From contig NZ_JARJNS010000004.1 in the NCBI RefSeq assembly GCF_030143245.1, positions 1 through 64,000 of the forward strand: a stretch of 64,000 nt of DNA, given 5' to 3'. This DNA comes from Rhabdaerophilum sp. SD176. GTDB taxonomy: Bacteria > Pseudomonadota > Alphaproteobacteria > Rhizobiales > Beijerinckiaceae. The notes beneath the pieces are model-generated. The model had not been told where the DNA came from. It was given only the letters and a program-made list of their open reading frames with translations, and made no database searches. This document shows, one piece after another, positions 7,052 to 24,763 of this stretch (within the stretch, counting starts at the first letter, position 1; each line of letters begins with the position of its first letter). The position numbers and the translations under genes are program-made.

Positions 7052-7349
7052 GTTGCCACCTTTTCTGGTCAATGGGCTCGGAACGAGTGGAGACGCGATG
7101 AACAGCCGACCGGGAAGCGACGATCCCAGTGCGCATGCTTCGGCTCGATAGCGATGATGCGACGCCCAAACCCCTCCTCTGTCAATCGGTGATGCAGAGT
7201 GTCGTTTATCGAGGCTTAGCCCATCTTTTCCGATTGTTCATCTGATCAGACAGGTTCAAGATCCCAGCCGGCTCTTTGGGAATAGGGCTGCCCGTTGTTT
7301 CTGGGGCTTCCTGAGGCGCCTTGCCGGCATAGGCGTGCACATGTGCTGA

Positions 7350-9038
7350 TCAGCCAAGCCAGATTCCGTTCGCAATTGCGTTGGCGACGTTTGAGATGTT
7401 TTCCGGACTTTCGGAAAATCCGAGCAACATTGTCGTCCTAGTCCAGGACCCATCATCAAGCCGGCCTTGCCATCCGGAAAAACCGGAGGGGTCGGGAGCG
7501 CGTCCGAGCACATTCTGGTAGAGAGCAGTAATGTAGCTCGAATCGGAGGGATCGGCCCCATATTTCTGGTCGAATTCTGCCGAGGCAATGAAGGCAGATG
7601 CCATCTCCTGGATTGTCAGGCCGCCATCGACTAGGCCAACATTGTGCTTAAGCCCCGGGGTGTCCGGTGTGCGGGCAAAGGCAGCCTGATAAAGTCGGTA
7701 AACCTGCCCGGCATTGCCGGGAGTATCAATCGCAAGGGTGCCATCGGAGAATTGCAGGCGCTCGATTGCGGTCAGTCGGTCAATCCCGTCGCGGCTGATG
7801 GTCTGGTCGGTCACCAGCCAGTCGGTGCCGATCGTTCCGAGCGAATATTCTGCGCGGGTGCTTTGAAAGATTACGGTGTCACGGCCCGCGGCCCCGTCGA
7901 AAGTTTCCGATGCGCTGGTCGAGCGGAACACGTCATTGCCCGGCGTCGTGTAGTTGGGCGCGCGCGTCAGGGTGACAGTCCAGTTTACGGTCTGTTCGAG
8001 GCTGAAACGGTCCAGTCGTACCCAATCGGTCGTGTCATAAGCCCGGGCCGAGACAGTGAAGGTCCCAACCCCCAGCCCCAGCTCCGACATGGTAGCCTGG
8101 GTGGCATTGCTTCTCGTTAGCACGCCGTTAACGAACCAATCGACCTTGATGATCTCACTATCGACCGGTGTCACCGAGAGGAGGGGAATATCGGTCACCG
8201 CTGCCTGACCTTGATAAGCGTAACTATCCAGCGGATCGACATATTTGTAGAATTCCAGAACGAAAGCCTCACGCGAGACCGCGTCGAACGGTTGGTTCAG
8301 CACACGCATCTTCGACAATTCAGATGGCCGGTAAATGCCCTGTTCGTAATAGCCGCCGCCCTCGTAAACACCGATTTGCCCCACCAGATCGGGACGGAGA
8401 TATTGGCTGATGCCGGCTTGCTCATAGCCCATCCAATGGCTCCATTTGGCGCCGGTTGGGTCCGTGGTGATGTTCACTTCGGCCGGCTCGGCGCCGGTAT
8501 AGCGCGAGGTGATGCCGCCATATTCATCCGCGAGCCCAACGAAGGAATGGCCGACTTCATGCAGCGCAATTTCCAGCGCTTCGGGATTGCCGCCGGCATA
8601 GGTGGCGAAATAGCCGCCACCGCCGCCATATTTCGTTTCGTTCACGGTTACAAACCGCATATCTGCGGCGATGCCTGTGCCCGACAACGCGGCATTCATC
8701 ACCGAGCCTGCGGTTGTATCGTTGATATAGAGCAGGCGGTCGGTCGCGCCGTCGAAATTGTAGGTTGCACCCAAAGCGGTGTCACGCACTGTGCCCGAGG
8801 CGGGATCATCCGCGCCGGACTGCGCCGAGACAACATCCACCAGATGGATGTTGAAGAATTTCTCGTAGCGGCCAAAGGGTTGTGAAAGGATGCTGTCATT
8901 GAAGAGGTAATTCACCAGCGATTGCGCATGGTTGGTATAGGTGGTAGCGATTTCCCCGGCCGTGTAGCCATCGCCCAGGAAGATCATGTCAATCCGGTTG
9001 CTGGCAGCGCCAGTATTGACGATGGTTCGAACTGCCAT
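7350..9038 (-). CDS. M64 (IgA-type) metallopeptidase with RTX remnant and DUF4214
   Basis: Putative secreted peptidase of 562 aa. The N-terminus (ASNRIDMIFLGDGYTAGE) and the zinc motif HEVGHSFVGLADEY near residue 160 match peptidase family M64, named for Clostridium ramosum IgA protease. After about residue 370 comes a linker with RTX-like GNDVFRSTSASETFDGAAG, then a DUF4214 domain ending GFSESPENISNVANAI. The gene starts 9 bp after a small secreted-protein gene and is probably co-transcribed with it. The substrate need not be immunoglobulin; M64 proteins are common in environmental bacteria. Export through the C-terminal module is inferred. Confidence 0.87.
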   Translation of the reverse strand: MAVRTIVNTGAASNRIDMIFLGDGYTAGEIATTYTNHAQSLVNYLFNDSILSQPFGRYEKFFNIHLVDVVSAQSGADDPASGTVRDTALGATYNFDGATDRLLYINDTTAGSVMNAALSGTGIAADMRFVTVNETKYGGGGGYFATYAGGNPEALEIALHEVGHSFVGLADEYGGITSRYTGAEPAEVNITTDPTGAKWSHWMGYEQAGISQYLRPDLVGQIGVYEGGGYYEQGIYRPSELSKMRVLNQPFDAVSREAFVLEFYKYVDPLDSYAYQGQAAVTDIPLLSVTPVDSEIIKVDWFVNGVLTRSNATQATMSELGLGVGTFTVSARAYDTTDWVRLDRFSLEQTVNWTVTLTRAPNYTTPGNDVFRSTSASETFDGAAGRDTVIFQSTRAEYSLGTIGTDWLVTDQTISRDGIDRLTAIERLQFSDGTLAIDTPGNAGQVYRLYQAAFARTPDTPGLKHNVGLVDGGLTIQEMASAFIASAEFDQKYGADPSDSSYITALYQNVLGRAPDPSGFSGWQGRLDDGSWTRTTMLLGFSESPENISNVANAIANGIWLG

Positions 9039-9435: not shown

Positions 9436-10233
9436 TCAGGAACCCATCCCGCCAAAATTCAGTGTGCCACCCTGATTGAGGAATTCGAGGTCCAGTTCGC
9501 CCTTCTGGTTGACAGGAACGCGGGCCTCGTGGGCCGCGTGAAGCTCGGCCAGTCGAGCGAGATCGGGCAAATTTTGCATCGACATCAGCTGAGCAAAGGC
9601 GAGCAAGAGCGCACCATCCGCCCGCAATTGGCCAAAGGTTTCCCCAGGTAATTGGGAGAGCAGCGTCTCATTGATCCGATAAAGCCCAACAATATTCTCT
9701 GAACGATCTCTGATCGTGAGCTGGATCGGCCATGGTTCGAGCAGCCCATGGGAATGCAACGTCGCCATAGCACGTTGGGTCGCCTGCTCAGCATGGTCGA
9801 GCTCGATCAGAAAGTTCAGGACCTCGCCGAGAAACGGGGCTGGCTTATCGTCAACAAAAAAGGCTTCACTTGCCCCTGTCTTTGACTGGGCCAGCCCCTC
9901 TGGCTCAAGAATCATCAGGATTTTCTGTTGATCCTGGCTATGGCCTAGCGCGAAGGGATAGCTGCGAAGACGGGCTGGAACATAGCGCCCTAGCCAGCGC
10001 CCATCCGGGGCCACCAGAAGACTTTTCCCGACATGGAGACCCGCGACGGCCACAGGTCGGAACGTTTCTCCATCCGCGACAAAGGCAATAGGAAGGTTGG
10101 CTTGTGCCCGCGCGATCTCGGAGACGACAAGGGGTATGAGGGCCGATTGGGCCGCCCGGGACAAATCGCTGGGGCGCTGCCAGAACAGATGAGCGTGGCG
10201 TTGGCGCGAAATCGGGACAAAGCTCGATGACAT
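9436..10233 (-). CDS. SapC-family protein
   Basis: Protein of 265 aa matching the SapC family (PF07277 type). Diagnostic stretches are FVPISRQRHAHLFW, ALIPLVVSEIARA, GLHVGKSLLVAPDGRWLGRYVPA and RSYPFALG. The family is named after a gene in the Campylobacter S-layer secretion locus; its biochemical role is unknown. There is no signal peptide or membrane segment. It heads a minus-strand cluster with the SH3-like protein (55-bp gap) and the M64-like peptidase, which fits a link to export of surface or secreted proteins. Type I exporter genes are absent here. The start has no clear ribosome site. Confidence 0.8.
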   Translation of the reverse strand: MSSSFVPISRQRHAHLFWQRPSDLSRAAQSALIPLVVSEIARAQANLPIAFVADGETFRPVAVAGLHVGKSLLVAPDGRWLGRYVPARLRSYPFALGHSQDQQKILMILEPEGLAQSKTGASEAFFVDDKPAPFLGEVLNFLIELDHAEQATQRAMATLHSHGLLEPWPIQLTIRDRSENIVGLYRINETLLSQLPGETFGQLRADGALLLAFAQLMSMQNLPDLARLAELHAAHEARVPVNQKGELDLEFLNQGGTLNFGGMGS

Positions 10234-10704: not shown

Positions 10705-12054
10705 TCACCTGCGCTGCGAAACCTGAGCCGACAGGATGGCCTTCACCGAGACATCGCGGATCTCGTCCAACGTGGCGGCGACGGCCTCGACAGCCCCTGC
10801 AATCTGCGCCTCGCTATGGGTGGCGTTGATGAAGAAACGCAGCCGTGAGGACTTTTCCGGCACGCCGGGCGGAAGGATCGGGAAGGCGTTGTAGCCCTTG
10901 CCCTTCAGCCGTTCCGAGAGCACCAGCGTCCGCGCCGTCTCCCCCACGATGACCGGGATCACGGCATAGCCCCAGGCCCCGCCGGTATCGAGGCCTTTGG
11001 CCTTGGCGAGGCGCAGGAAGAGCTGGCTGTTCGCCTGCAGCTTCGCCACCCGCTCCGGCTCGCGGTTCATGATCTCGAGCGCCTTGGCCGAGGCGGCGGC
11101 GTTGGAGGCGGGCATGCCCACGGAATAGACGAAGCCGGGAGCATGGCATTTCAGCAGGTCGATGACGATGGCATTGCCGGCGACGTAGCCGCCGCAACCC
11201 ACCAGCGTTTTCGACAGCGTGCCGAACCAGAGATCGACCCCGGCCGGATCGACATTCTGGTGCTCGAAAATGCCCCGGCCACGCGCGCCGAGCACGCCGA
11301 GCGCATGGGCATCGTCCATCATCAGCCAGCAGCCGAATTTCTTCTTGAGGGCGACGAGGCGGGCCAGATCCGGCCCGTCGCCATCCATCGAGAACAGGCC
11401 CTCGGTGATGATCATCGCCCGCTCGAAACGATGCCGCTCGCTGGTCAGCAAGGTCTCCAGCGCATCGAGATCGTTATGGGCGAAGTTCCGCCGTGTCGCG
11501 CCGGAAAGCTGCGCGCCGACGACGATGCAATTATGGCTCAGCACATCGTGGAAGATGATGTCCTTCGGCCCCATCAGGCTGGCAATCGTCGAGACGCCGC
11601 CGGCATGGCCGGAATTGAACGCCACGCAATCCTCGGCCGCGTAATTCTCGGCCAGAAGCCGCTCGAGATGGCGATGGATCGACCGTTCTCCGGCGCTGAT
11701 CCGGCTGGCGGAAACGGAGGTGCCGAATTCTCGTGTTGCTTCTTCCGACGCCGCGACAATCTCGGGATGGCCGTTGAGGCCGAGATAGTCATACGATGCG
11801 AAATTGGTGAGCTTGCGTCCCTCGAGAATGGTCTCGGCCCCGGCGCGCACGTCATGCTGGCGGTAATAGGGCACTTCCAGCCGCGCGAATTTGGCGAATT
11901 CGCGCTGGAAGGTGATCTGCTGGTATTGCGGCAGCGAGTCGAAACGCGTGTCGTAGTTGCGCTCCGGCAGGTCCGGGCGAGCCGTGGTGGCAGAGGGCGC
12001 CTTGCGCATCATCGACAAGAGCGCGTTGACGTCTTTTCCACCCGCTCCGCTCAT
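10705..12054 (-). CDS. Alpha-oxoamine synthase (PLP), probable polyketide-offloading enzyme
   Basis: Fold-type I PLP enzyme of 449 aa in the alpha-oxoamine synthase family (KAS/BioF, ALAS, serine palmitoyltransferase). Key stretches are FASYDYLGLNGHP, FNSGHAGGVSTI, DDAHALGVLG and FGTLSKTLVGCGGY, where Lys near residue 280 should bind PLP. These enzymes join an amino acid to an acyl thioester with loss of CO2. An N-terminal extension of about 60 residues precedes the core. It lies immediately after a thioesterase-less polyketide synthase, so by analogy with fungal fumonisin synthesis (Fum1/Fum8) it probably releases the ACP-bound chain as an aminoketone. Classical biotin or haem roles look less likely given this neighbour. 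The amino acid used is unknown. Confidence 0.88.
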   Translation of the reverse strand: MSGAGGKDVNALLSMMRKAPSATTARPDLPERNYDTRFDSLPQYQQITFQREFAKFARLEVPYYRQHDVRAGAETILEGRKLTNFASYDYLGLNGHPEIVAASEEATREFGTSVSASRISAGERSIHRHLERLLAENYAAEDCVAFNSGHAGGVSTIASLMGPKDIIFHDVLSHNCIVVGAQLSGATRRNFAHNDLDALETLLTSERHRFERAMIITEGLFSMDGDGPDLARLVALKKKFGCWLMMDDAHALGVLGARGRGIFEHQNVDPAGVDLWFGTLSKTLVGCGGYVAGNAIVIDLLKCHAPGFVYSVGMPASNAAASAKALEIMNREPERVAKLQANSQLFLRLAKAKGLDTGGAWGYAVIPVIVGETARTLVLSERLKGKGYNAFPILPPGVPEKSSRLRFFINATHSEAQIAGAVEAVAATLDEIRDVSVKAILSAQVSQRR

Positions 12055-12085
12055 GGTCCTTTTCCACCCGCTCCGCTCATGGTCC
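12034..12085. repeat. 26-bp tandem duplication at the PKS/oxoamine synthase junction
   Basis: Two exact 26-bp copies (12034-12059 and 12060-12085) lie head to tail. Each carries an ATG followed by A. The first, overlapping the PKS stop as ATGA (12080-12077), starts MSGAGGKGP and stops at a TGA that overlaps the oxoamine synthase ATG (12054-12051). The two genes are thus linked through a 9-codon mini-gene by two ATGA overlaps. Confidence 0.9.
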
Positions 12086-15000
12086 GCGCCGGCCTCCCGC
12101 CATTTTCAGTTTCTGCGAAAGGGCTTCCGCCTCCTCGCTGGTGATGTTGCCGCCATGCAGGCCCGACATGGCCAGCGCGATATTCCCGCCCGTATCCGCG
12201 GCTTCCTCGTCACCCCCGCCGCCACCGCCGAGGCTGGTATGGATCATTGCCGCGATATCGCCGAGCCGGCGATCGCCCGCGCCGACCAGTGGCACATCGG
12301 TGCCGCAGAGCCGCTCGATCGAGAGCTGGAGCTCAAGCGCCATCAGCGAATCGAGGCCCAGCTCGCCGAGCGGACGGCTGACATCAATCTGCTCTTCCGG
12401 CATCCGCAGGATATGCGAGATCTCGCGCTTGAGCGCACCGACGATGATCGTGATCGCCTCGCTCCGGCTCTTGCCCTCGATCGCGGTGACGAGATCGCCT
12501 TCCTGCTCGCCATCTTCCTCGCGCCGGGCGAGGCCGAGGCCGGCAAAGGCGGGGCTGTTGATCAGGCGGAGCTTTTCCGCCGCCGCACCGGGCGAGATAT
12601 TGGTGTAGAACTGCATCGGCCCAACCTCGTTGCCGAGCACCAGCAGCCGGCCGAGATGCGCGAGGCTCTCGGCGGAGGAGATGCCGACCACGCCCGTCGT
12701 GCGCCGCAGGCGGCGGCCGAGCTGCTTGTCCCGCGCGATGATGCCGACATCGGAAATCGCGCCCCAGCCGACGGCAAGTGCCGGCTTGCCCTGGTGGCGC
12801 CGCTCGCGGGCAAAGCCTTCGAGCCACGCATTCGCGGCCACATAGGCGCCCTGGCCGGGGCTGCCGATCACCGTCGTGGCCGAGGAATAGACCACGAAGA
12901 AGTCGAGGGGCTGGCCGGAAGTTGCAGCGTCGAGATGACGCGCGCCGTCGATTTTCACCTTGAGCACCGCCCTGAGGCGTTCCGGAGTCAGGCCGCTGAT
13001 CATCCCGTCATCCAGCAGCACGGCGGCATGGATCACCCCGCGGAGCGGCCCGTGGCGCTCGGTGATCTGCCGGACAAGGGCGTCCACAGCCTCGCGGTCC
13101 GAGACATCGAGCGCGACGATCTCCACCGTCACGCCGCGGGCACGAAGCGTTTCGACCTCGCTTTCGAGGCCCTCCTCGACGCGGCCGCGCCGCGAGGCCA
13201 GCACCAGCGTGCCGGCACCCTTGCCGGCCAGCCAGCGGGCAGTCGCGAAGCCGAGGCCGCTGGTGCCGCCAACGACAAGATAGGCGCCGGGCTTTGCCCG
13301 GAACTGCAACCCGGTGATCGAACGGCTCGCCAGCTTCGAGGGGCGGACGACGATCTTGCCGACATGTTCGGAGGCCTGCATCAGCCGGAACGCGGTGCCG
13401 ACATCCTCACCCTCGAAGACCCGATAGGGCAGGGGCTTCAGCGCGCCGGAGGCGAACTGCGCCGAGATGGTCTTCATCATCGCCTCGACCAGCGGCCGGT
13501 CATGCGCCAGCAATTCATCGAGATCGACGCCGTAATAGGCGATGTTCCGCACGAACGGCCGGAGGCCGAGCTGGGTGTTGTCGAGGTAGTCGCGCTTGCC
13601 GAGCTCGACGAACCGCCCGAACGGCTTGACCAGCCGGAAGCTCGCCACCATGGCCGGGCCGGCCAGCGAGTTGAGGACCACATCGACGCCGCCGAGCGTG
13701 TTGCGGATAACCTCCGCGAACCGCTCCTGCCGGGAATCGAAGGTCAGGTCCGCCCCCATGGCACGGGCAATGGCGCGGCGCTCCTCGCTGCTCGCTGTCG
13801 CAAGCACGCGGCTGCCGGCCTGTTTCGCGAACTGGATCGCCGCCAGCCCGACGCCGCCCGCCCCGCCATGGATGAGCACGTCATCCCCGGCGGCGATCTG
13901 CGCGCGCTTGACGAGCGCGAACCAGGCGGTCGCGAAGGCGACGGGAATCGTCGCTGCCGCCTCGAGACTCACGCCTTCCGGCACCTTGAAGAAATGCCAG
14001 GCCGGCGAGACGAGATGCGAGGCAAAGGTATTCGCCGCAAAGCCCATCACCGCATCGCCGACGCGGAGATCGGTGACGCCCGCGCCGGTACGGGTCACGA
14101 TGCCGGAGCATTCGAAGCCGAGCGCGGCCGCCGTGAGGCCGGCGCCCAGGAGGTCATCATCGAGAATGCCGAGGCCGACAAGAATGTCGCGGAAATTCAG
14201 CCCGACGGCCGCAACTTCGATTTCGATTTCGCCAGCGCCCGGTGCCTGCCGCGTCTCGCGCAGCCAGGTGAAACTGTCGAGGCGGCCGGCCTGCTCGAAT
14301 TTCAGGACGCTGCGCTCGTTCTCGCCAAGGCGCGCCGGCGGGCAAAGGTTCCGCCGCATCCGGATGGCCTTGAGCCCGTCCGCGCGCACCACAACCTCCA
14401 GTTCGCCGCCCGAAAGGCCAAGCAGGGCTTCCATCTGCGCGCCGGCATCCGGCAGCGCCGGATCGAAATCGGCAAGCCGCAGGTCGACCGTCGGGAATTC
14501 GTTGATCGCCACGCGCAGGAAGCCACAGAGGCTGCTGGCCGTGGCGGCGGGAACGGCATCATCGTCATGCGCGCCCTGCGTGCAGATCGTGACGCGGATG
14601 CCCGTATCGAGCGGTTCCAGCGCCTCGGCGATCCGCTTGAGCGCCTCGAGATGCGTGGCGACGCGCTCGACCGCATCGGCCCCGTCAAGGCTGACCGGGT
14701 AGACAAGATGCGGCGGCAGGCGTTTTTCCTGCGCCAGTTGGGCGAGGCGCTCGCCCAGATTCTTATCCGCCGCGAGCATCAGGTCGGCGCCGCGGGCAAG
14801 GGCCTTGTCGAACGGGGTGAGGCCGGAAACGACCACCGCATAGGCCGTGCTCGAAACGTCGCGCGCAGGCGCCGGAACCTGTCCGGTGATCAGCCCGCCG
14901 AGGCCGTCGCTGGTCGGCCGCGTGGCGAGCGTGACAGCGCCGAATCGCTCCAGCGCCTCGCGCGTGCGTTCCGGCGAAGGTGTGCGCGGCAGGCCCGCCT

Positions 15001-18000
15001 CACCCTTGCCGGCCGGCGTGAACCAGCCGGCCCAGAGACCAAGCAGGAAATCCAGCGTCGCATCGGCACCCGGCTGCGCCACGAGCACGGTTGCATCCGG
15101 GCGGAGCACGCCGCGCAGCGAAGCGGAAATGCCGTCCTCGCCGCCGAGCGGGGCCGAGGCCACGCCGGCCAGCACGTCAAACCCGACCGGCGAGGTCAAA
15201 TGCAGCGCATCCTCAAGATTGAGGAATTCGATTTCCGGATCGACCTTGCCCATCAGGCGGGCATTGTCGATCGCCTTGCGGTTCTGGGCAACGAGCGTCA
15301 CCTCGATCACGCTGGCCCGGACCAGTGGCATCACCGCCGTCAGGAGGCCGGCGCTCCAGGGCTCGACCGCGAGCACGCGCAGCTTCCGGGCGGCCTGGCC
15401 AGCCATCGCCTCCAGTGCATCGCGAAGGGCAATAAGCGCGGGATGGACGAGCAGGCCGGATGTCTCGATCTGGTCCCGTGCGGAAGGCGGCACGGCAAGC
15501 CGGCCACCCTGCCGGATCAGCCGTTCGGCATGCGCCAGCGCCTGCGCCGCAAGGCGGATCTCGAGATTGGCATCGGCGAAATTCGTGACCAGCGTGGTCA
15601 GGACCTCTTCGGCCGGCGGCAGCGGGTTTTCCGCCACCAGAACGCCGCCCTGGACGAGCCCGAACCCTTCGAGGATCACGCGCGCGGCCTCAAGCAAGGG
15701 CACTGCATCCTCGGCGACTTGGCCACCGGCCACGAGGCCGGCCGGGTCAAGCTTGCCGTCGGGCGCAAGTCCGATCGCGATGCGGTGGGCGAGCGAGACG
15801 GCGAAGGCCCGGGCAATGAGCCAGGCCGGTGGCACCTCGCGGTCATCCGTATTGTCGTTCGAGGCTGCCTCGGCCTTGGCCAGGCGGGCCAGCGCGCCTG
15901 CGGGCAGGGTGATCGGCAGCGCTTCGACCCGGAAGGTGCGGTCGGCGGTCGTGGCCTGACCGAGATAGAGCGCGCGCAGTACCGCCGCCTCGACGAAGGC
16001 GACAACCTCGCCGGCTTCATCCATCAGCGTGATGGCCACGGTCTTGAACCGGTCGGTCTCGTGGGTCAGCCGCGTGATGGACTGGCGGATCGGCACGCCA
16101 TGGCGCCAGACCCGGATACCTCGGAAGCGGACCGGAAGATGCGCTTTTTTTTCGCCTTCCTTCTGCGGCCGCGCGATGAACAGGCCGTGGAAAGAGGCAT
16201 CCAGCGAAACCGGGTTCAGCACTTGGCGGTCCGCGAACGCCCCGAGGCCCATCTCGTCGGGCAGGCGAAGCTGCGCATGGGTGGTGATGTCGTCACGTTC
16301 GGAGGCCGTGACAAGCTGGAACATGGGGCCGTAATCGAGGCCCGCCAGCGTTGCTTCGGCATAGACCTCCGCCGGCGTATCCCGAAAATAGCCTTCGCCG
16401 TGTTCCGGCCCGGGCAGCGGTGCCACGACCGGCGTGGCGAGCGGCTCGATCCGGCCGCGGGCATGAAGCACCCATTCCTGCGCGGAAAAGCGCTTGCGGC
16501 TCCAGACCTCGATCGTATTCGTGGCCTCGGAATAGCGGGTCGAGATCTCGCGGGTCTCGTCCTGCGCGATGGCGAGGGCGCGGAGCACATCGAATTCGGC
16601 CATCTGCAGCGGTCGCTCGCCGAAAAGGTCACGTCCCGCCGCCAGCGCCATCTCGATCAGCCCTGCCGCAGGGACGATCACCCCGCCATCGACGCGATGA
16701 TCATCGAGATAGGGCACGATGGCTGGGTCAAGCAGAGCGCGCCATTCCGGAGAGCCGTCGGCCATCCGGGCGCCGAGCAGCGGATGCCGCGCGTCCGAAT
16801 GGTTGAGCTTGCCAAACGCGTTGACATGTTCCGACGTACCCGGAAGCTGATAATCCTGCCGCTGAAAAGCATAGCCGGGCAGTTCGGCCATGCGCACCGG
16901 ACGCGGCCCGAACACCGCCTCGCGGTCGACATGCGCGCCATGGGCGATCAGCCGCGCCACGACGAGCGCGACCGGGTCGAGCCGGTCTTTCTGCGACAGG
17001 CTGGCCAGTGTCTCGCCGGCGCGGCCGGCATCGCGCAGGGTTTCCGCAATCGGGCCCGTCAGGATGGCGCGGGGGCCGATCTCCAGATAGATCTGCCCGT
17101 CCTGCGGCGCAGCGGCCAGCAAGGCCTGCATGAAGCGGACCGGTCGGCGGATATTCTGCCACCAATACTCGGCATCGAGCGTTTCGCCGGCCTTCACCTC
17201 GCCGGTGACAGTCGAGCAGAAGGGAATCGCGGTCGCACGCGGGGAAAGCCCCGCGAGATCGGCCACCATGGCCGGCCCGATCGAGTCCAGCACCGAGGAA
17301 TGGAACGGATAATCGATATCCAGCGCCACCGTGGCCACACGGGCGGCACGGCAATGCTTGGCGAAGCTCTTCAGCAGGTCTGCCGGGCCGGAAACCGTTG
17401 TGGAGGTGCCGCTGTTATAGGCGGCGATCTCGATCGCCTCGGCGCCGAAGGCCTGCAGCAGGCGCTCGACCTGCGGCGCCTCTGCCGCCACGACCATCAT
17501 CCGGCCGAGGCCGCGCACCTTTTCCTGATGCTTCGACCGCAGATAGATCAGCCGCACCGCCTCGGCGCGGGTCAGCGCGCCGCTGGCTTCCGCCGCCGCG
17601 ACCTCGCCGACCGAATGCCCGAGCACCGCGGCCGGGCGGATGCCTGCCTCGCCGAGGCAGCCGGCAAGCGCGGATTGGATCGCATAGATAAGCGGCTGGG
17701 CAATCGAGGTCTGCTCGAGTTCTGCTGCCGGGATCGGGGTGGTCAGCTTATCGGTCAGCGACCAGCCCGAAAGTGGCTGGAACAGCGCATCGATCGTCGC
17801 GATCTCGGCCCGGAAACGCGCATTGCCGGCATAGGCGGCATGGCCCATCTCGGCATGTTGGCTGCCGTTGCCAGAAAAGACGAAGACGACTGGCGCATTG
17901 GCAGAAGCCGCCTGACCGAATGCATGGCTGGCAGGATCAGCCTGTCCATCGGCAAACTGGCGCAACGCGTCGGCGGCATCCTGGCCGTCGACCAGCGGCA

Positions 18001-19480
18001 CAACCAGCCGCGCCTTCAGCGCGTCGCGGCCATGGGCTAGCGTCGCAGCAGCAAGCCCGGCATCGAGCCCGGCTTCAAGGACACCGGCAAGCCGATCTGC
18101 TTGCCGGGCGAGGCTTTCCCGGTCGGCAGCCGTCAGCATGAGATGGGTGGCCCGGCTGGCCCCGGCCGCAGCAGCAGGCGGCGCGGCCTTGACCAGCACA
18201 TGCGCATTGGTGCCGCCGAACCCGTAATTGCAGATCGCGGCGTAATCGGCGCCGTTTTCGAGCGTCAGCGGCCGCGCAGCCGCATTCGGCTCCAGATTGA
18301 GCGCTTCGAAATCGATCATCTCGTTGGTCTGGTCGAGGAAGAGCGACGGCGGCAGCAGGCGATGTTCCAGCGCGAGGATCGACTTCAGCAGCCCGGCCAG
18401 CCCGGAGGCGGCTTCGAGATGGCCGATATTCGACTTCACGGACCCGACGGGTAGCGGCGTCTTGCGCTTCTGCCCGAGCGACTGGCCGATGGCATTCGCC
18501 TCGATCGGATCGCCCACCTTGGTGCCGGTGCCATGCGCTTCGACAAAGGCAAGTTTTTCCGGCGAAACGCCGATATCGGCGTAGAAACGGTCGATCAGGT
18601 CGCGCTGGCCCTCGATCGAGGGCAGCGAGATGCCGGTCGTCCTTCCGTCCGAATTGACGGAGGCCCCGACCACGAACCCGCGGATCCGCTCACCCTTGGC
18701 CATCGCATCGGCTTCGCGCCGCAGCACGAGGACGACAGCGCCTTCGGACCGGACATAGCCGTCCGCCTTGGCGGAGAAGGGGCGGGAAAGGCCTGTTGGC
18801 GAAAGCATGCGCGCCTGGCTGAACCCGATGAAGGGAACGGGCGAGAGCAGCATGTTGACGCCCGCGACAACGGCGAGGTCAATCTTGCCTTCCTCGAGCG
18901 CGTCGGTCGCCTGCTTCAGCGCGACGAACGAGGAGGAGCAGGCGGAATCCAGCGTGAAGCTCGGTCCCTTGAAATCGTAGATGTAGGAAATGCGGTTTGA
19001 CAGCACAGCCAGCGAATTGCCGGTCATGAAGTGGCTTTCCATCACCGCCGGATCGAGCGACGCCGTGCCCTGGTAATCCACCATCGACGCGCCGACATAA
19101 ACGCCGACCTGCGTTCCCGCGACGCTCGATGCGGGAATGCCGGCATCCTCGAGCGCTTCCCAGACCACTTCGAGCAGCAGGCGCTGCTGCGGGTCCATCT
19201 GCTGCGCTTCGCGCGGCGAGACGCCGAACGGCGCCGGGTCGAAGCCGAGCGGGTCATCAAGATAGCCGCCGGCGAAGGTATAGGCGAATCCGGGTTCGGG
19301 ATTGCCCGGGCGCAGGAAACGCTCGACGCTCCAGCGATGGTCGGGCTGGCGCCGCACGGAATTGCGGCCCTCGACCAGCATCGACCAGAACTCGGCAACC
19401 GACGATGCGCCGGGCAAACGGCAGGCAGCACCGATGATTGCGGAGTGGGAGGATTTGCGCTGTGACGTCATCAACCACAT
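12077..19480 (-). CDS. Single-module highly reducing type I polyketide synthase
   Basis: Cytosolic megasynthase of 2467 aa. Domains in order are: KS (about 10-430, active Cys181 in DSACSSSF, His in EAHGTGT and NIGHLEA); AT (about 530-830, GHSVGE near 620, YPFHS suggesting malonyl specificity); DH (about 890-1160, DDHRVDGG near 927 and a later LDASFHG); a degenerate methyltransferase (about 1370-1500) without a glycine-rich SAM loop; ER (about 1740-2050, GGAGGVG near 1872); KR (about 2065-2270, GGTSGLG, later YSS and GAYVAAN); and ACP (GLDSLMAL, Ser near 2377). There is no thioesterase or reductase. With one complete reducing module it probably works iteratively and makes a saturated chain, which the coupled oxoamine synthase would release. 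ATG at 19480 or 19471 are possible starts. No phosphopantetheinyl transferase is in the window. Confidence 0.95.
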   Translation of the reverse strand: MWLMTSQRKSSHSAIIGAACRLPGASSVAEFWSMLVEGRNSVRRQPDHRWSVERFLRPGNPEPGFAYTFAGGYLDDPLGFDPAPFGVSPREAQQMDPQQRLLLEVVWEALEDAGIPASSVAGTQVGVYVGASMVDYQGTASLDPAVMESHFMTGNSLAVLSNRISYIYDFKGPSFTLDSACSSSFVALKQATDALEEGKIDLAVVAGVNMLLSPVPFIGFSQARMLSPTGLSRPFSAKADGYVRSEGAVVLVLRREADAMAKGERIRGFVVGASVNSDGRTTGISLPSIEGQRDLIDRFYADIGVSPEKLAFVEAHGTGTKVGDPIEANAIGQSLGQKRKTPLPVGSVKSNIGHLEAASGLAGLLKSILALEHRLLPPSLFLDQTNEMIDFEALNLEPNAAARPLTLENGADYAAICNYGFGGTNAHVLVKAAPPAAAAGASRATHLMLTAADRESLARQADRLAGVLEAGLDAGLAAATLAHGRDALKARLVVPLVDGQDAADALRQFADGQADPASHAFGQAASANAPVVFVFSGNGSQHAEMGHAAYAGNARFRAEIATIDALFQPLSGWSLTDKLTTPIPAAELEQTSIAQPLIYAIQSALAGCLGEAGIRPAAVLGHSVGEVAAAEASGALTRAEAVRLIYLRSKHQEKVRGLGRMMVVAAEAPQVERLLQAFGAEAIEIAAYNSGTSTTVSGPADLLKSFAKHCRAARVATVALDIDYPFHSSVLDSIGPAMVADLAGLSPRATAIPFCSTVTGEVKAGETLDAEYWWQNIRRPVRFMQALLAAAPQDGQIYLEIGPRAILTGPIAETLRDAGRAGETLASLSQKDRLDPVALVVARLIAHGAHVDREAVFGPRPVRMAELPGYAFQRQDYQLPGTSEHVNAFGKLNHSDARHPLLGARMADGSPEWRALLDPAIVPYLDDHRVDGGVIVPAAGLIEMALAAGRDLFGERPLQMAEFDVLRALAIAQDETREISTRYSEATNTIEVWSRKRFSAQEWVLHARGRIEPLATPVVAPLPGPEHGEGYFRDTPAEVYAEATLAGLDYGPMFQLVTASERDDITTHAQLRLPDEMGLGAFADRQVLNPVSLDASFHGLFIARPQKEGEKKAHLPVRFRGIRVWRHGVPIRQSITRLTHETDRFKTVAITLMDEAGEVVAFVEAAVLRALYLGQATTADRTFRVEALPITLPAGALARLAKAEAASNDNTDDREVPPAWLIARAFAVSLAHRIAIGLAPDGKLDPAGLVAGGQVAEDAVPLLEAARVILEGFGLVQGGVLVAENPLPPAEEVLTTLVTNFADANLEIRLAAQALAHAERLIRQGGRLAVPPSARDQIETSGLLVHPALIALRDALEAMAGQAARKLRVLAVEPWSAGLLTAVMPLVRASVIEVTLVAQNRKAIDNARLMGKVDPEIEFLNLEDALHLTSPVGFDVLAGVASAPLGGEDGISASLRGVLRPDATVLVAQPGADATLDFLLGLWAGWFTPAGKGEAGLPRTPSPERTREALERFGAVTLATRPTSDGLGGLITGQVPAPARDVSSTAYAVVVSGLTPFDKALARGADLMLAADKNLGERLAQLAQEKRLPPHLVYPVSLDGADAVERVATHLEALKRIAEALEPLDTGIRVTICTQGAHDDDAVPAATASSLCGFLRVAINEFPTVDLRLADFDPALPDAGAQMEALLGLSGGELEVVVRADGLKAIRMRRNLCPPARLGENERSVLKFEQAGRLDSFTWLRETRQAPGAGEIEIEVAAVGLNFRDILVGLGILDDDLLGAGLTAAALGFECSGIVTRTGAGVTDLRVGDAVMGFAANTFASHLVSPAWHFFKVPEGVSLEAAATIPVAFATAWFALVKRAQIAAGDDVLIHGGAGGVGLAAIQFAKQAGSRVLATASSEERRAIARAMGADLTFDSRQERFAEVIRNTLGGVDVVLNSLAGPAMVASFRLVKPFGRFVELGKRDYLDNTQLGLRPFVRNIAYYGVDLDELLAHDRPLVEAMMKTISAQFASGALKPLPYRVFEGEDVGTAFRLMQASEHVGKIVVRPSKLASRSITGLQFRAKPGAYLVVGGTSGLGFATARWLAGKGAGTLVLASRRGRVEEGLESEVETLRARGVTVEIVALDVSDREAVDALVRQITERHGPLRGVIHAAVLLDDGMISGLTPERLRAVLKVKIDGARHLDAATSGQPLDFFVVYSSATTVIGSPGQGAYVAANAWLEGFARERRHQGKPALAVGWGAISDVGIIARDKQLGRRLRRTTGVVGISSAESLAHLGRLLVLGNEVGPMQFYTNISPGAAAEKLRLINSPAFAGLGLARREEDGEQEGDLVTAIEGKSRSEAITIIVGALKREISHILRMPEEQIDVSRPLGELGLDSLMALELQLSIERLCGTDVPLVGAGDRRLGDIAAMIHTSLGGGGGGDEEAADTGGNIALAMSGLHGGNITSEEAEALSQKLKMAGGRRGP

Positions 19481-19771: not shown

Positions 19772-20788
19772 TCAGGATGGCGCGAAGGGCGATTGTCGAT
19801 ACCATTCGACGAAGCGGGCGATGCCGGTGGCAATCGGCGTGTCCGGCTCGAACCCGGTCAGCGCCTGGAGCCGGCTGACATCGGCATAGGTGGCCGTGAC
19901 GTCGCCCGGCTGGCGCGGCAGCGCCCGGCGGATCGCCTTCCGGCCGCAGGCCTGTTCGATGGCGGCGATAAAATCCGACAGGCGTTCCGGCCGGTGGTTG
20001 CCGATATTCAGGATGCGGTGCGGGCTGGCCGCGCCCTCGCGCACCGGAGGTTTGTCAAGCAGCAGCCGGATGGGCGTGACGATATCGTCAACATAGGTGA
20101 AGTCCCGCTGCATGCTGGCTTCATCATAGACATCGATCGGCCGCCCCGCGAGGATCGCCTCGGTGAACTTCCACAGCGCCATGTCCGGCCGGCCCCACGG
20201 GCCATAGACCGTGAAGAAGCGCAAACCCGTGAGGGGAATGCCGAAGAGATGGGCGTAGGTTTCGGCCATCAGTTCGTTCGCGCGTTTGGTGGCGGCATAG
20301 AGCGAGACCGGGTGGAGAACCGGGTCCTCCTCGCTGAACGGCACCTTGGTGTTCGCGCCATAGACCGAGCTGGACGAGGCATAGAGGAAATGCCGCACGG
20401 GCACATGCCGCGCCGCTTCCAGCAGCGAGAGGAACCCGTCGATATTGGCGCGCGTATAGGCGAACGGGGCGTCAAGCGAATGCCGCACGCCGGCCTGCGC
20501 GGCGAGATGCACCACCGAATCGGGCCGGAATTCCTCGAAAATCCGGCGGATGCCGCCCACATCCTCGATGCCCATCCGCTCGAAGGAAAAGCCGTTCCGC
20601 CCCTTCAGGGTCTCAAGCCGGGCTTCCTTGATGGCAGGATCATAATAGGCATTGAGATTGTCCACGCCCAGCACCTGGCATCCGGCATCAAGCAGGGTCC
20701 GCGTCTGGTGCATGCCGATAAACCCGGCCACGCCGGTCACCAGTACGCGTCGGGGCAGCGGAGAAGAAGACGGGGCACCAGAATTCAT
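19772..20788 (-). CDS. NAD-dependent epimerase, UDP-glucuronate 4-epimerase-like
   Basis: Short-chain dehydrogenase-type sugar nucleotide epimerase of 338 aa. The NAD motif is [10 protein letters not shown], followed by [19 protein letters not shown], typical of UDP-glucuronate 4-epimerases that make UDP-galacturonate for capsule or LPS. The catalytic pair is in [11 protein letters not shown] (YxxxK), and a Ser cluster ASSSSVYG precedes it. It is divergent from the GDP-fucose synthase gene, which also supplies surface-glycan precursors. The 290 bp between it and the PKS start hold no clear gene. Exact substrate specificity is inferred from similarity only. Confidence 0.85.
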
Positions 20789-20952: not shown

Positions 20953-21903
20953 ATGAGTGCCAGTTTTGATCTCAAGGATCGTCGGATCTTCGTTGCCGGC
21001 CATCGCGGCATGGTTGGCAGCGCGATTGTCCGCGCGTTGCGCGAGCGGGGCATTGAGCCGCTGACAGCCGACCGCGATGTGCTGGATCTCGAGCGTCAGG
21101 CCGAGGTGGAAGCCTGGCTTGCGGCCAACCGGCCCGAGGTGATCATCCTCGCGGCGGCCAAGGTCGGCGGCATCCATGCCAACAACAGCTTCCCGCGGGA
21201 TTTCCTTTACCGGAACATGATGATCGCAGCCAACGTGATCGATGCCGCCTACCGCAACGGCGTGAACAAGCTGCTCTATCTCGGCTCTTCTTGCATCTAC
21301 CCGCGCGAGGCGCCGCAGCCGATTCCGGAAACCGCCCTGCTGACAGGAACGCTTGAGCCGACGAATGAATGGTATGCGATCGCCAAAATCGCAGGGATGA
21401 AGCTGACCCAGGCCTATCGCCGGCAATGCGGCGCCGACTACATTTCGCTGATGCCGACCAACCTGTACGGCAAGGGCGACAACTACCACCCGGAAAACAG
21501 CCATGTGATCGCCGCCCTGCTGCGCCGCTTTCACGAGGCGAAGGCCGGAAACGCGCCTGCGGTCACGATCTGGGGCACTGGCACGCCGCGCCGCGAATTC
21601 CTCTATGTCGACGATTTCGCCGAGGCCGCCCTCTTCGCGCTGGAACGGCATTCTTCTGAGGACTTCATGAATGTCGGCACCGGCCAGGACCTGACAATCG
21701 CCGATCTCGCGCGCGAGATTGCCGGCGTCGTCGGCTTCACGGGCGAGCTGGTCTTCGATACGTCCCGCCCGGATGGCACGCCCCGCAAGCTGCTTGATGT
21801 CTCCCGCATCAAGGCGTTGGGCTGGCAGGCCCGCACGCCGCTCCGCGAGGGGTTGCGGATCGCCTATGCCGATTTCCTCGCCGGCGGCGGGCGGAACCAC
21901 TGA
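20953..21903 (+). CDS. fcl: GDP-L-fucose synthase
   Basis: Bifunctional 3,5-epimerase/4-reductase of 316 aa that converts GDP-4-keto-6-deoxy-mannose to GDP-L-fucose. The cofactor motif is [11 protein letters not shown]. Family-specific stretches are [34 protein letters not shown] (catalytic Tyr and Lys) and [19 protein letters not shown]. The length is normal for Fcl/WcaG. No GDP-mannose dehydratase partner lies in the window. It is transcribed away from the epimerase gene and convergently with epmB. Confidence 0.94.
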
Positions 21904-21923: not shown

Positions 21924-22964
21924 TCACCCCTCCGGATAGCGATGCACCTGCCCGTGCGAATCCCGCACCAGAGCGATGCCGCCCTCCCGCCCGATCACGG
22001 CATCCGGCCCGATTTCCACCTTGCCATGCCCGCCCGGCAGGTCGAGCACATAGGCCGGCAGGCCGGGGCCGGAAATCCGGCCGCGCAGCCGCCCGTAAAG
22101 CGCCTGCCCCTCGGCAAGGCTCATCCGGAAATGGCCCGTACCGGGCGCAAGATCGGGATGATGCAGGTAAAGCGGCACGATGCGATGGGCGAGCATGGTG
22201 CTGAACAGGTCGAGCAACGCCTCCTCGCTGGCATTGACGCCCTTGAGCAGCACGCTCTGCCCAAGGAGGACGATTCCGGCGGCATGGAGCCGCGCCAGAG
22301 CGGCCGCTGCCTCCGGCGTGAATTCCCGCGCATGGTTGGCATGCACGGCGACGTAATTGGCCTTGCCGGAAAAGGCGAGGGCGGAGGCGAGGTCCGCAGT
22401 GATCCGCCCCGGCGCCACCACCGGTACCCGGCTGTGCCATCGCACGAGCCGGATATGCGCAAGCGGCGCAAGCCTTTCACCCAGCGCGCGGATGCGGCGG
22501 GCCGAGAGCATCAGCGGATCGCCCCCGGTGACAATCACTTCCCGCACGGCAGGCTGGGCGGCGAGATAGGCACCGATCGTGTCAAGCTCGCCCGCGTTAA
22601 GATTGCCATGGCCCGCCGGGCCGACCATCTCGCGGCGGAAGCAGAACCGGCAATAGACCGGGCAGCTATGCGTGATCTTGATCAGCACCCGGTCGGGATA
22701 ACGGTGGACGAGCCCCTTCACCGGCGAATGCGGGTGATCGCCGATCGGATCGGCGCTCTCTTCTGGAAGCGTCACCGCCTCTTCCGGCCGGGGCAGGAAC
22801 TGCCGGCCGATCGGATCCTCCGGGCTCTCGATCAGTCGCGCCATATCCGGCGTGACGGCCACGGCGTAGCGCTGCGCCACCGGCGCCAGAGCCGGCACGG
22901 CATCGGCGGGGATGAGCCCCGCCGCCGCGAGATCCCCGAGCCGCGTCAGCGAGCGGGCGCTCAT
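21924..22964 (-). CDS. epmB: EF-P beta-lysylation protein EpmB (lysine 2,3-aminomutase-like radical SAM)
   Basis: Radical SAM enzyme of 346 aa. The cluster motif CPVYCRFCFRRE near residue 103 has the CxxxCxxC that binds the 4Fe-4S/SAM centre. The KamA-like pattern VIVTGGDPLML follows. EpmB converts (S)-alpha-lysine to (R)-beta-lysine for EF-P modification. The start overlaps the stop of epmA in an ATGA, so the two are translationally coupled. The length fits EpmB rather than the longer catabolic lysine aminomutases. The EF-P gene lies just beyond epmA on the other strand, which makes the assignment firm. Confidence 0.93.
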   Translation of the reverse strand: MSARSLTRLGDLAAAGLIPADAVPALAPVAQRYAVAVTPDMARLIESPEDPIGRQFLPRPEEAVTLPEESADPIGDHPHSPVKGLVHRYPDRVLIKITHSCPVYCRFCFRREMVGPAGHGNLNAGELDTIGAYLAAQPAVREVIVTGGDPLMLSARRIRALGERLAPLAHIRLVRWHSRVPVVAPGRITADLASALAFSGKANYVAVHANHAREFTPEAAAALARLHAAGIVLLGQSVLLKGVNASEEALLDLFSTMLAHRIVPLYLHHPDLAPGTGHFRMSLAEGQALYGRLRGRISGPGLPAYVLDLPGGHGKVEIGPDAVIGREGGIALVRDSHGQVHRYPEG

Positions 22965-24007
22965 GCCTCGCCCTCCGGAAAGGGCCAGGGCGTGAAGATC
23001 ACCCCGGCCACATCCTCAGCGCCCGTTGCCAGCATGGCCAGCCGGTCGAAGCCGAGCGCGATGCCCGATGCCGGCGGCATATCGGCAAGCGCGTCGAGAA
23101 AATCCTCGTCGAGCGGGTAGCTTTCGCCATAAAGGCGCTCCTTCTCCGCCATATCGGCCTCGAACCGGCGGCGCTGCTCGGCGGGGTCGGTCAACTCGCC
23201 GAAGGCATTGGCCAGCTCGACGCCGCAGGCATAAAGCTCGAACCGTTCCGAAAACCGCGGATCATCCGGGCAGGGGCGGGCGAGGGCGGCTTCCGAAACC
23301 GGGTAGCGGTCGAGGATCGTTGCCCGGCCGAGGCCGAGATGGGGCTCGATCCGCTCGCTGATGACCCGGCTGAACACATCGGTCCAGCCATCATCGGGCG
23401 CGATCCGCAAACCGATGCCGCGCGCGGCCTCGGCAAAGCCGTCGCGATCCGCGAGATGGGCATCAAGGTCGATCCCGGCATGGCGCTCGAACGCTTCGCT
23501 CACGCTCAGCCGTTCCGGCTCGATCCGGGGATTGCAGGACTGGCCTCGATACTGAAACAGATCCTGCCCGCCGATCTCCGTCGCGAGGCGTAGGAGATCA
23601 GCACAATCCGCCATCAGCGCCGTGTAATCCTCGCCGCTGCGATACCATTCGAGCATCGTGAATTCCGGCGCATGCAGCCGCGAGGCCTCGCGCGCCCGGA
23701 AAACCGGCGCGAACTGGTAGATCCGCCGCTCACCAGCCGCGAGCAGCTTCTTCATCGCGAATTCCGGCGAGGTGTGCAGGTAACCCTGCTGCGGCACGTC
23801 GCCCGACGCCAGCCAATGCGCCTCGAAAGCATGCAGATGCGTTTCGTTCCCGGGCGAGACCTGCACGATCCCGGTTTCGACCTCGAGGAAATCCCGCGCA
23901 TCGAAATGCGCCCGGATGGCAGATTTCAACCGCGCGCGCCGGACGAGGCGATCGCGCCTCCGGGCATGGTGTGGGGCGCGCCAGAACGGGTGAACGGGTG
24001 ACATCAT
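22961..24007 (-). CDS. epmA: EF-P lysine lysyltransferase EpmA (PoxA/GenX)
   Basis: Class II lysyl-tRNA synthetase paralogue of 348 aa without an anticodon-binding domain. It ligates beta-lysine to a conserved lysine of EF-P. Visible stretches are [45 protein letters not shown] and [10 protein letters not shown] (class II motif 2), and the C-terminal [10 protein letters not shown] (motif 3). The first ATG (24007) or the next codon ATG (24004) may be used. It is the first gene of an epmA-epmB operon divergent from efp, with under 200 bp between starts. Confidence 0.94.
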
Positions 24008-24193
24008 GCGGGAGGACGGCGCCCTTGCCGGATTTTCATGAGGCCGGTGGCTTGGCCTTTCGATGCGAATTGGCTATGCAGCGCCACGAAATTCATTTGG
24101 AACAGGTCCGGCCCGGCGTCAAACGCGCGCTGCGCTTCCTGTGCCGTTTCCCTGAACCTGCGCCTTTCGCGCGTCAAGAAACCGAGGAAAAAC

Positions 24194-24763
24194 GTGGTCA
24201 AGGTCATCGCCTCTTCCATCCGCAAGGGCAATATCATCGAGCTCGAGCATGGGCTTTATTCGGTCATTTCCGCCGAGAGCTTCTTCCCCGGCAAGGGCAC
24301 GCCGACGACGCAGATCGACTGCCGCCGCCTCTCGGACGGCGTGAAGACGCAGGTTCGCTATCGCACGACGGAGCAGGTCGAGAAGGCCTTCGTCGAGGAC
24401 AAGGACTATACCTATCTCTATGGCGACGATGACGGTTTCACCTTCATGGACCAGGAGAATTTCGAGCAGGTCATCGTCCCGAAGGACGTGATCGGCGATC
24501 AGGCCGCCTATCTCCAGGAGAGCATGGTCGTTCGTCTTGGCCTCTATAACGGCGTCGCGGTCACGGTTATCCTGCCGCAGCGCGTCGTGCTCGAGATCGT
24601 CGAGACCGAGCCGGTGACGAAGGGCCAGACGGCCTCCTCCTCCTACAAGCCGGCCATTCTCTCGAACGGCGTCCGCACCGCCATCCCGCCGCATGTCACC
24701 GCCGGCACGCGCGTCGTCATCAACACGGAAGACGGTTCCTACGTCGAACGCGCCAAGGATTGA
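24194..24763 (+). CDS. efp: Translation elongation factor P
   Basis: EF-P of 189 aa, the usual length, which rescues ribosomes stalled at polyproline. Three beta-barrel domains fit the sequence: KOW-like start ([19 protein letters not shown]), middle OB, and C-terminal OB ending in [15 protein letters not shown]. The modification site is Lys34 in FFPGKGTP, as in E. coli numbering. The open frame extends upstream to 24038, but the GTG at 24194 gives the family N-terminus and has GAGGAAA just before it. Together with divergent epmA-epmB this forms a complete beta-lysylation set apart from EpmC hydroxylase, which is not seen. Confidence 0.95.

Follow-up and report, generated by a model that had tools for sequence, protein, structure and literature searches.

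A polyketide synthase and oxoamine synthase gene pair of Rhabdaerophilum as a probable source of a sphingoid envelope lipid

Here we describe two adjacent genes, coding for a type I polyketide synthase (PKS) and a pyridoxal phosphate (PLP)-dependent alpha-oxoamine synthase (AOS), in a 64,000-nucleotide stretch of the genome of Rhabdaerophilum sp. SD176 (contig NZ_JARJNS010000004.1, positions 1 to 64,000; hereafter the window), together with the genes that accompany such pairs in this and other genomes. An earlier reading of the same DNA from its letters alone (the sequence-only reading) had proposed that the AOS releases the PKS chain as an aminoketone, giving a sphingoid-like product. The pair is made up as follows:

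12077..19480, minus strand: type I PKS, iterative-type and reducing, 2467 aa, without a release domain; domain order ketosynthase, acyltransferase, dehydratase, enoylreductase, ketoreductase, acyl carrier protein (KS-AT-DH-ER-KR-ACP)
18341..19441, minus strand: KS domain, aa 14-380 (PF00109/PF02801; DSACSS, HGTGT, NIGHLEAASG)
16931..17887, minus strand: AT domain, aa 532-850 (PF00698; GHSVGE, YPFHS)
15971..16786, minus strand: DH domain, aa 899-1170 (PF21089/PF14765, PS-DH)
13346..14239, minus strand: ER domain, aa 1748-2045 (PF08240/PF00107/PF13602, ADH_N/ADH_zinc_N)
12752..13288, minus strand: KR domain, aa 2065-2243 (PF08659; LDD motif)
12248..12433, minus strand: C-terminal ACP, aa 2350-2411 (PF00550, PP-binding; LGLDSL)
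12033..12085, minus strand: PKS/AOS junction, with a tandem 26-bp duplication and a mini-open reading frame (mini-ORF) between the genes
10705..12054, minus strand: AOS, PLP-dependent, 449 aa (PF00155; Lys282 the PLP site by homology)

The PKS gene is a single intact frame, and the order of its Pfam domains (called at E <= 0.001) bears out the earlier claim that the protein ends in an ACP with no release domain: at that threshold no thioesterase, terminal reductase, condensation or methyltransferase domain was detected, and the ACP, the final domain, is followed by a tail of 56 residues. The PKS motifs present comprise the Cys/His/His of the KS, the GHSVGE of the AT, the nucleotide-binding motifs of the ER and KR, the Tyr of the KR and the DSL of the ACP; the His motif of the DH had no match by regular expression, and H928 and P937 are invariant in a 14-sequence alignment. 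The PKS gene is followed on its strand, as had been stated, by the AOS gene.

The two genes were also said to be joined by ATGA overlaps, of which one part stands: the PKS stop does lie within an ATGA, at 12080, and the ATG of this motif opens a 9-codon mini-ORF rather than the AOS. Owing to a tandem duplication of 26 bp at this point (27 nt being identical at offset 26), the AOS starts only at the second ATG (12054), displaced 26 nt downstream, and the stop of the mini-ORF overlaps this second ATGA. The duplication recurs in a relative (G012, locus L044), and another relative (G013, locus L045) has a plain 4-nt overlap. A wider view comes from a scan of named genomes, from which the best 80 of 536 confirmed AOS relatives were retained (the 80 named loci): the overlap of PKS and AOS is exactly 4 nt in 47 of the 68 in which both gene ends are readable, which is not a matter of chance.

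The AOS scores under the cut-off of every AOS model listed from NCBIfam, the top one being bioF (349 of 426 bits), and reaches 280 of 640, 254 of 500 and 174 of 670 bits against the three serine palmitoyltransferase (SPT) models. A profile of 13 family members finds its closest solved relatives among the SPTs (3a2b and 8guh), and its AlphaFold model has a mean predicted local distance difference test score of 85.4. All 89 AOS sequences compared, which take in the 79 of the 80 named AOS that were long enough, share Y88, S117, S281, V312-G313 and F408; the position of Y88 is held by Asn in both 5-aminolevulinate synthases (ALAS) of the Rhabdaerophilum genome, and the remaining shared positions differ there too. 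We take Y88 and S117 to lie in the substrate pocket.

The sequence-only reading had suggested a search for the pair across genomes, and this shows the association to be widely kept: a PKS is present in 77 of the 80 named AOS loci and in all 55 of those with at least 19 kb of DNA, and one of the other named loci (L067) ends at the AOS itself. The partners have also diverged in step, the distances between PKS proteins and those between AOS proteins correlating at r=0.936 over 69 pairs (64 of the 80 named loci with a long enough PKS, four plasmid loci and the window), a value that none of 2000 permutations reached. The AOS of the window shows 45-50% identity to the AOS enzymes that accompany a PKS in plasmid loci of Pseudomonas, Sinorhizobium, Shinella and Paraburkholderia and in Planktothrix, and falls in the same PKS-linked family as the partners from S. 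meliloti (at the RkpG position) and the Pseudomonas plasmid. When the two ALAS of its own genome serve as the root of a tree, it groups with its genus mates and then with Bosea, a Hyphomicrobiales metagenome-assembled genome (MAG) and Rhizobium oryziradicis (support 1.0). The types from rhizobia and from Pseudomonas/Paraburkholderia lie further out in the same PKS-linked group, with several inner nodes weakly supported. On plasmid p3 of Planktothrix agardhii (L144:5605-13203) the two enzymes are fused in one protein of 2532 aa, annotated only as a type I polyketide synthase. A second candidate fusion, in a 2716-aa open frame of G081, was rejected, for the PKS frame stops at L041:11091, ahead of the AOS match.

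Beyond the window, the same genome (G000, 99.29% complete) carries on contig C18 a further group of genes relevant to the pair:

C18:551026-552561: cytochrome P450 (P450), its conserved part beginning at about residue 41
C18:552569-553453: LpxL-like acyltransferase
C18:553531-554760: Wza-type polysaccharide exporter
C18:554765-555577: short-chain dehydrogenase/reductase (SDR), a candidate ketone reductase
C18:557535-558836: KpsS-like gene, after the SDR

The first four form an apparent operon, the acyltransferase, exporter and SDR genes starting 8, 78 and 5 positions, respectively, past the end of the gene before, and motifs are intact in the P450, the acyltransferase and the SDR. The SDR is 39% identical to that of Shinella. 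The KpsS/RkpJ-like protein of this genome matches PF05159 with 247.9 bits, is 41% identical to an S. meliloti protein and, with 226 bits, falls short of the 600 set as cut-off for the NCBIfam KpsS equivalog. A search of the window for SDR, RkpI and capsule genes next to the pair came up empty: tblastn with four SDRs found none in the window or in locus L043 apart from the KR of the PKS itself, tblastn at 1e-6 found no RkpI-like gene in L042, the window or L043, and the two PF00884 proteins of the genome have no BLASTP match at 1e-3 to the four references.

The genes of contig C18 travel with the pair. Among 17 genomes of the genus, contained in a set of 120, an AOS limit of E <= 1e-60 separates 12 AOS-positive from 5 AOS-negative genomes; the P450, LpxL-like and SDR genes (limits 1e-60, 1e-25 and 1e-35) are all present in 12/12 of the former, and not one of them has a match in any of the latter, 0/5 (Fisher 1.6e-4, a value that ignores descent). 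The LpxL-like gene is confined to these 12 genomes among the 120. At E <= 1e-100 the P450 is found in 16 of the 120, all AOS-positive, and P450 matches of lower strength (1e-60 to 1e-68, about 30-35% identity) are spread over AOS-positive and AOS-negative genomes alike. A KpsS at E <= 1e-30 is present in 8/12 AOS-positive and 0/5 AOS-negative genomes of the genus. Physical linkage points the same way: the AOS, P450 and LpxL-like genes share a contig in 7 of the 11 AOS-positive genus mates (G001, G004, G008, G013, G014, G015 and G016), spanning at most about 46 kb, and lie on different contigs in the remaining four. The fullest case is G013, where the pair, P450, LpxL-like gene, SDR and an ATP-binding cassette (ABC) polysaccharide exporter occupy one 35-kb cluster in the order GDP-fucose synthase, epimerase, PKS, AOS, KpsE-like, ABC permease, KpsE-like, ABC ATPase and GMD-like, then further genes with a glycosyltransferase, KpsS-like, SDR, exporter, LpxL-like and P450. 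ABC permease, ATPase and KpsE-like proteins are encoded close to the pair both in G013 and in further members of the genus, none of them beside the pair in the window. In G008 the P450 is read as two overlapping pieces in different frames (G008:C27:13531-14917).

Relatives of the C18 genes also lie within 10 kb of the pair in other lineages, namely Bosea (SDR, P450), R. oryziradicis (LpxL-like, P450, KpsS), a Beijerinckiaceae MAG (SDR, KpsS, LpxL-like, P450), a Rhizobiales MAG (SDR, LpxL-like, P450, exporter) and two MAGs labelled Acetobacteraceae and Roseomonas (SDR, P450). Across the 55 long loci (at least 19 kb) the tally is SDR 35, KpsS 25, lipoteichoic acid (LTA)-synthase-like 25, exporter 18, KpsC 12, ABC ATPase 11, P450 5 and LpxL-like 3, numbers that show recurrence and not an unbiased enrichment, because the reference proteins came partly from such loci. 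Nine named loci of Rhizobium/Sinorhizobium type show neither the P450 nor the LpxL-like gene. Of six plasmid loci, none has an LpxL-like gene and one, from Shinella, has a P450 (L145:1-928, cut by the end of the stretch) that is 57.5% identical to that of C18 and lies near a PKS-AOS pair with an RkpI-like gene; we thus rejected the idea that the P450 is special to the window's branch. In a record labelled S. meliloti pSymB (Ak57, L141) the order is PKS-AOS-SDR, an unannotated ORF and a capsule gene. This ORF (L141:16286-17824, 512 codons) shares 61.6% identity with a protein from Shinella in which Pfam finds a Sulfatase domain (of the alkaline phosphatase/LTA-synthase type), and we take the ORF to sit at the rkpI position, the S. 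meliloti gene names being assigned by position. A Pseudomonas plasmid has the order PKS, AOS, PhyH, capsule gene, GNAT, LTA synthase, SDR, capsule gene.

The pair shares features with several systems. In fungal fumonisin synthesis, Fum1, Fum8, Fum13 and Fum6 are of the PKS, AOS, SDR and P450 types, respectively, and the AOS off-loads the chain. The sequence-only reading had drawn this parallel from a reducing PKS without a release domain beside an AOS, and the co-occurrence of the SDR and P450 with the pair strengthens it. In contrast to its fungal counterpart, the pair is bacterial, its PKS has no detected methyltransferase domain where Fum1 has one, and an acyltransferase and polysaccharide genes take the place of ester side chains. 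Bacterial SPTs belong to the AOS family and include the nearest solved relatives of the window AOS, but the Asn of their SNxYLG motif is Tyr in 89/89 members of the present family, the window AOS is under all three NCBIfam SPT cut-offs, and its acyl donor would be the PKS-bound ACP.

The closest functional precedent is PfSgaA (PKS) and PfSgaB (AOS) of Pseudomonas fluorescens MYb115, reported in 2025 to make C24-C28 sphinganines along with further products assigned to the phosphoglycerol sphingolipids; for its condensation with acyl-CoA, PfSgaB takes L-serine in strong preference to Ala and Gly, and the SDR PfSgaC is the proposed keto reductase (PMC12134224, main text). The likeness extends to an iterative type I PKS beside an AOS with a KDSR-like SDR in the system, and the window AOS is 50% identical to that of the Pseudomonas plasmid, whose PKS, AOS and SDR locus tags are spaced by the same steps as in the tags printed for MYb115, suggesting the same gene order in that strain. 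The differences are that no KDSR-like SDR is in the window's cluster, the candidate lying on C18 (relatives of which adjoin the pair elsewhere), and that this genome adds the P450 and the LpxL-like acyltransferase, neither an LTA-synthase-like nor a GNAT gene having been found in the window. A long-known parallel is provided by rkpA and rkpG of the rkp-1 K-antigen capsule region of S. meliloti, with the wcb clusters of Burkholderia described as its homologues (PMC7902896 and PMC3908369, in their accessible text). Here the common elements are the PKS-AOS pair and, in the genome, an SDR and a KpsS/RkpJ-like protein (for wcb, by description), besides the P450 of the rhizobial-type Shinella locus. 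Unlike rkp-1 (RkpA, G, H, I, J), the window has no single PKS-AOS-SDR-RkpI-RkpJ operon, its SDR and RkpJ-like genes being on another contig; no RkpI-like gene turned up in the stretches searched and the PKS identity is just 35-37%. The pair thus represents a type of bacterial PKS/AOS sphingoid system that is already known, with the LpxL-like acyltransferase and the P450 as the additions of its branch, and rkpA/rkpG look like another case of a PKS/AOS sphinganine pair. The earlier remark that such loci are little described is therefore out of date, 6,101 homologous PfSgaAB clusters having been counted in 2025 (PMC12134224, main text), while the proposal that the AOS frees the chain as an aminoketone, to give a sphingoid-like product, finds good support in the homology to PfSgaAB, a system of tested function.

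What the sequences themselves show is the domain composition of the enzymes, the pairing and joint divergence of their genes, and the company that these keep in genomes and loci. We consider it probable that the pair makes a PKS-derived, oxidised and acylated sphingoid envelope lipid, likely the lipid end of an exported polysaccharide. Briefly, we advance the following plausible scheme. The PKS would assemble a long, reduced acyl chain bound to the ACP at its own C-terminus and, as it has no release domain, hand this chain to the AOS, which would release it by decarboxylative condensation with an amino acid to yield a 3-ketosphinganine-like base; this step and the sphingoid nature of the product are to be expected from the homologues. 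More conjecturally, the amino acid would most likely be L-serine, the SDR encoded on C18 might reduce the ketone, the P450 might oxidise the chain and the LpxL-like enzyme might acylate it, in whatever order. The envelope would receive the resulting ceramide-like or acylated sphingoid lipid, which would most likely serve there as the lipid end on which a polysaccharide exported by an ABC system is built, as the KpsS-like and exporter genes suggest.

Several observations weigh against this scheme. Two named loci, L090 and L121, have no PKS within 1.1 and 2.0 kb of upstream DNA, respectively; G006 has a PKS fragment and no AOS; and the SDR, found in 16 of the 120 genomes, occurs in one (G108) without an AOS. 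The 12:5 split of the genus may follow descent, and two of the 17 genomes are just 78-83% complete. In SD176 itself the pair and the C18 run are on separate contigs, with at least about 57 kb between them even were the contigs to lie end to end, and the SDR reaches 110 of the 400 bits of the NCBIfam ketodihydrosphingosine reductase model, one of many SDR models matched. The exporter ATPase of G013 scores best in NCBIfam against TagH/Wzt-type models and not KpsT, and has a 44% relative (contig C1) and no close copy in the SD176 genome. Further, KpsS is missing at E <= 1e-30 in 4/12 AOS-positive genus genomes (G008 having a weak PF05159 protein), and a capsule-anchor role may therefore not be general. 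Lastly, the PfSgaAB products were studied as free lipids, capsule going unmentioned (PMC12134224, main text).

Among the alternative explanations, it is scarcely credible that the AOS is a housekeeping enzyme of biotin, haem or threonine metabolism placed beside the PKS by accident. Its top NCBIfam model is indeed bioF, but it is under the cut-offs of all the AOS models listed; the only two further AOS genes of its genome at E <= 1e-5 are both ALAS above cut-off; BioB does not surpass its cut-off in the genome (35.8 vs 225 bits); and the PKS linkage is conserved. A biotin or haem role, which the sequence-only reading had named as a result that would speak against it, is thus countered by the sub-cut-off scores, the two separate ALAS genes and the kept linkage. 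A secreted fumonisin-like small molecule in place of a structural lipid would fit the PKS, AOS, SDR and P450 as enzyme types of fumonisin synthesis, but seems very unlikely to us, as the genes around the pair in relatives are those of polysaccharide synthesis and export and the LpxL-like acyltransferase indicates an acylated lipid. Somewhat less remote, though still improbable, is the same pathway using alanine or glycine to give a 1-deoxy or 1-desoxymethyl base of fumonisin-like kind. Fungal Fum8 uses alanine, and the AOS family differs from ALAS at such positions as Y88 and S117, so that the amino acid cannot be read from the sequence. Against this, the window AOS and that of the Pseudomonas plasmid differ at just four (89, 94, 121 and 397) of 35 positions compared, all four variable in the family, and the homologue PfSgaB strongly prefers L-serine (PMC12134224, main text).

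The most serious contender, which we regard as unlikely without dismissing it, is a free PKS-derived membrane sphingolipid of the PfSgaAB type with no polysaccharide attached, the capsule genes being nearby merely since envelope genes cluster. The sphinganines and presumptive phosphoglycerol sphingolipids of PfSgaAB (PMC12134224, main text) and the four AOS-positive genus genomes lacking KpsS at the above limit agree with it. On the other side, a KpsS-like gene lies within 10 kb in 25 of the 55 long loci, as against about 0.3 expected from random placement of one KpsS per 4-Mb genome, and rkpA/rkpG are found in a capsule (K-antigen) region (PMC7902896 and PMC3908369, in their accessible text).

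If the reading of a polysaccharide-linked sphingoid lipid is extended to the whole family, a more daring proposition arises, which we offer as possible but would not yet back: that SgaAB- and RkpA/RkpG-type pairs are one family whose original job was a sphingoid lipid replacing (lyso-)phosphatidylglycerol (PG) as the anchor of ABC-exported capsules. E. coli KpsS attaches the first 3-deoxy-D-manno-octulosonic acid (Kdo) to (lyso-)PG (PMC7694667, accessible text). A phosphoglycerol head on a sphinganine would make the molecule similar to lyso-PG, and the resemblance may be its purpose; in the rhizobial/Pseudomonas branch the LTA-synthase-like enzyme would add the phosphoglycerol to create a lyso-PG mimic for KpsS, and in the window's branch the LpxL-like acyltransferase and the P450 (recurring in the Shinella rkp-like locus) would yield a hydroxylated, ceramide-like version. 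Were this true, the field of bacterial PKS-derived sphingolipids would be joined with the question of why rkp and wcb capsule clusters carry a fatty-acid-synthase-like PKS, and the capsules of many proteobacteria would be predicted to end in a sphingoid lipid. The two literatures appear to run apart. The main text of PMC12134224 does not contain 'rkp', 'capsul' or 'polysaccharide', the accessible text of a 2025 review on capsule attachment contains neither 'polyketide' nor 'sphing' (PMC12220298), and that of a 2022 paper on the ACP of SPT names RkpF as a capsule ACP and lacks 'rkpA' and 'rkpG' (PMC9386255). No title or abstract joining PKS-derived sphingolipids with rkp/wcb capsules was found in a search that left most subscription papers outside its scope, and a Hyphomicrobiales lipid module of PKS, AOS, SDR, P450 and LpxL-like acyltransferase was likewise not found described in it. 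Bacterial PKS/AOS pairs were known already; what is added here is the naming of this module and the link of the pair to tailoring enzymes and capsule genes, suggesting a role as a lipid anchor of the coat.

The window holds two further sugar-nucleotide genes upstream of the PKS:

19772..20788, minus strand: NAD-dependent sugar-nucleotide epimerase/dehydratase, adjoining the PKS in several genus mates too
20953..21903, plus strand: GDP-L-fucose synthase, divergent (502.8 bits, cut-off 500), a polysaccharide precursor gene near the PKS in several genus mates

Directly downstream of the pair, at 9436-10233, is a gene for a SapC-family protein, the place of which is taken in G013 by another gene and polysaccharide exporter genes. 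Still further downstream of the AOS, and at short distances from one another, are the genes of three proteins ending in DUF4214, namely one with RTX repeats (2926-4434), one with a CAP domain (5594-7072) and an M64 peptidase (7350-9038). With regard to biotin, no BioF is found among the AOS matches of this genome and no BioB over its cut-off, and the organism may not make its own. On the far side of the fucose synthase gene, a 757-aa ORF at 24959-27232 gives a strong signal of coding and matches no Pfam family at 1e-5. Between them, at 21924-24763, genes for an EpmB-like radical SAM protein and an EpmA-like lysyl-tRNA-synthetase-type protein adjoin that for elongation factor P, by their Pfam domains, and we presume from the resemblance that they form an elongation factor P lysylation set.

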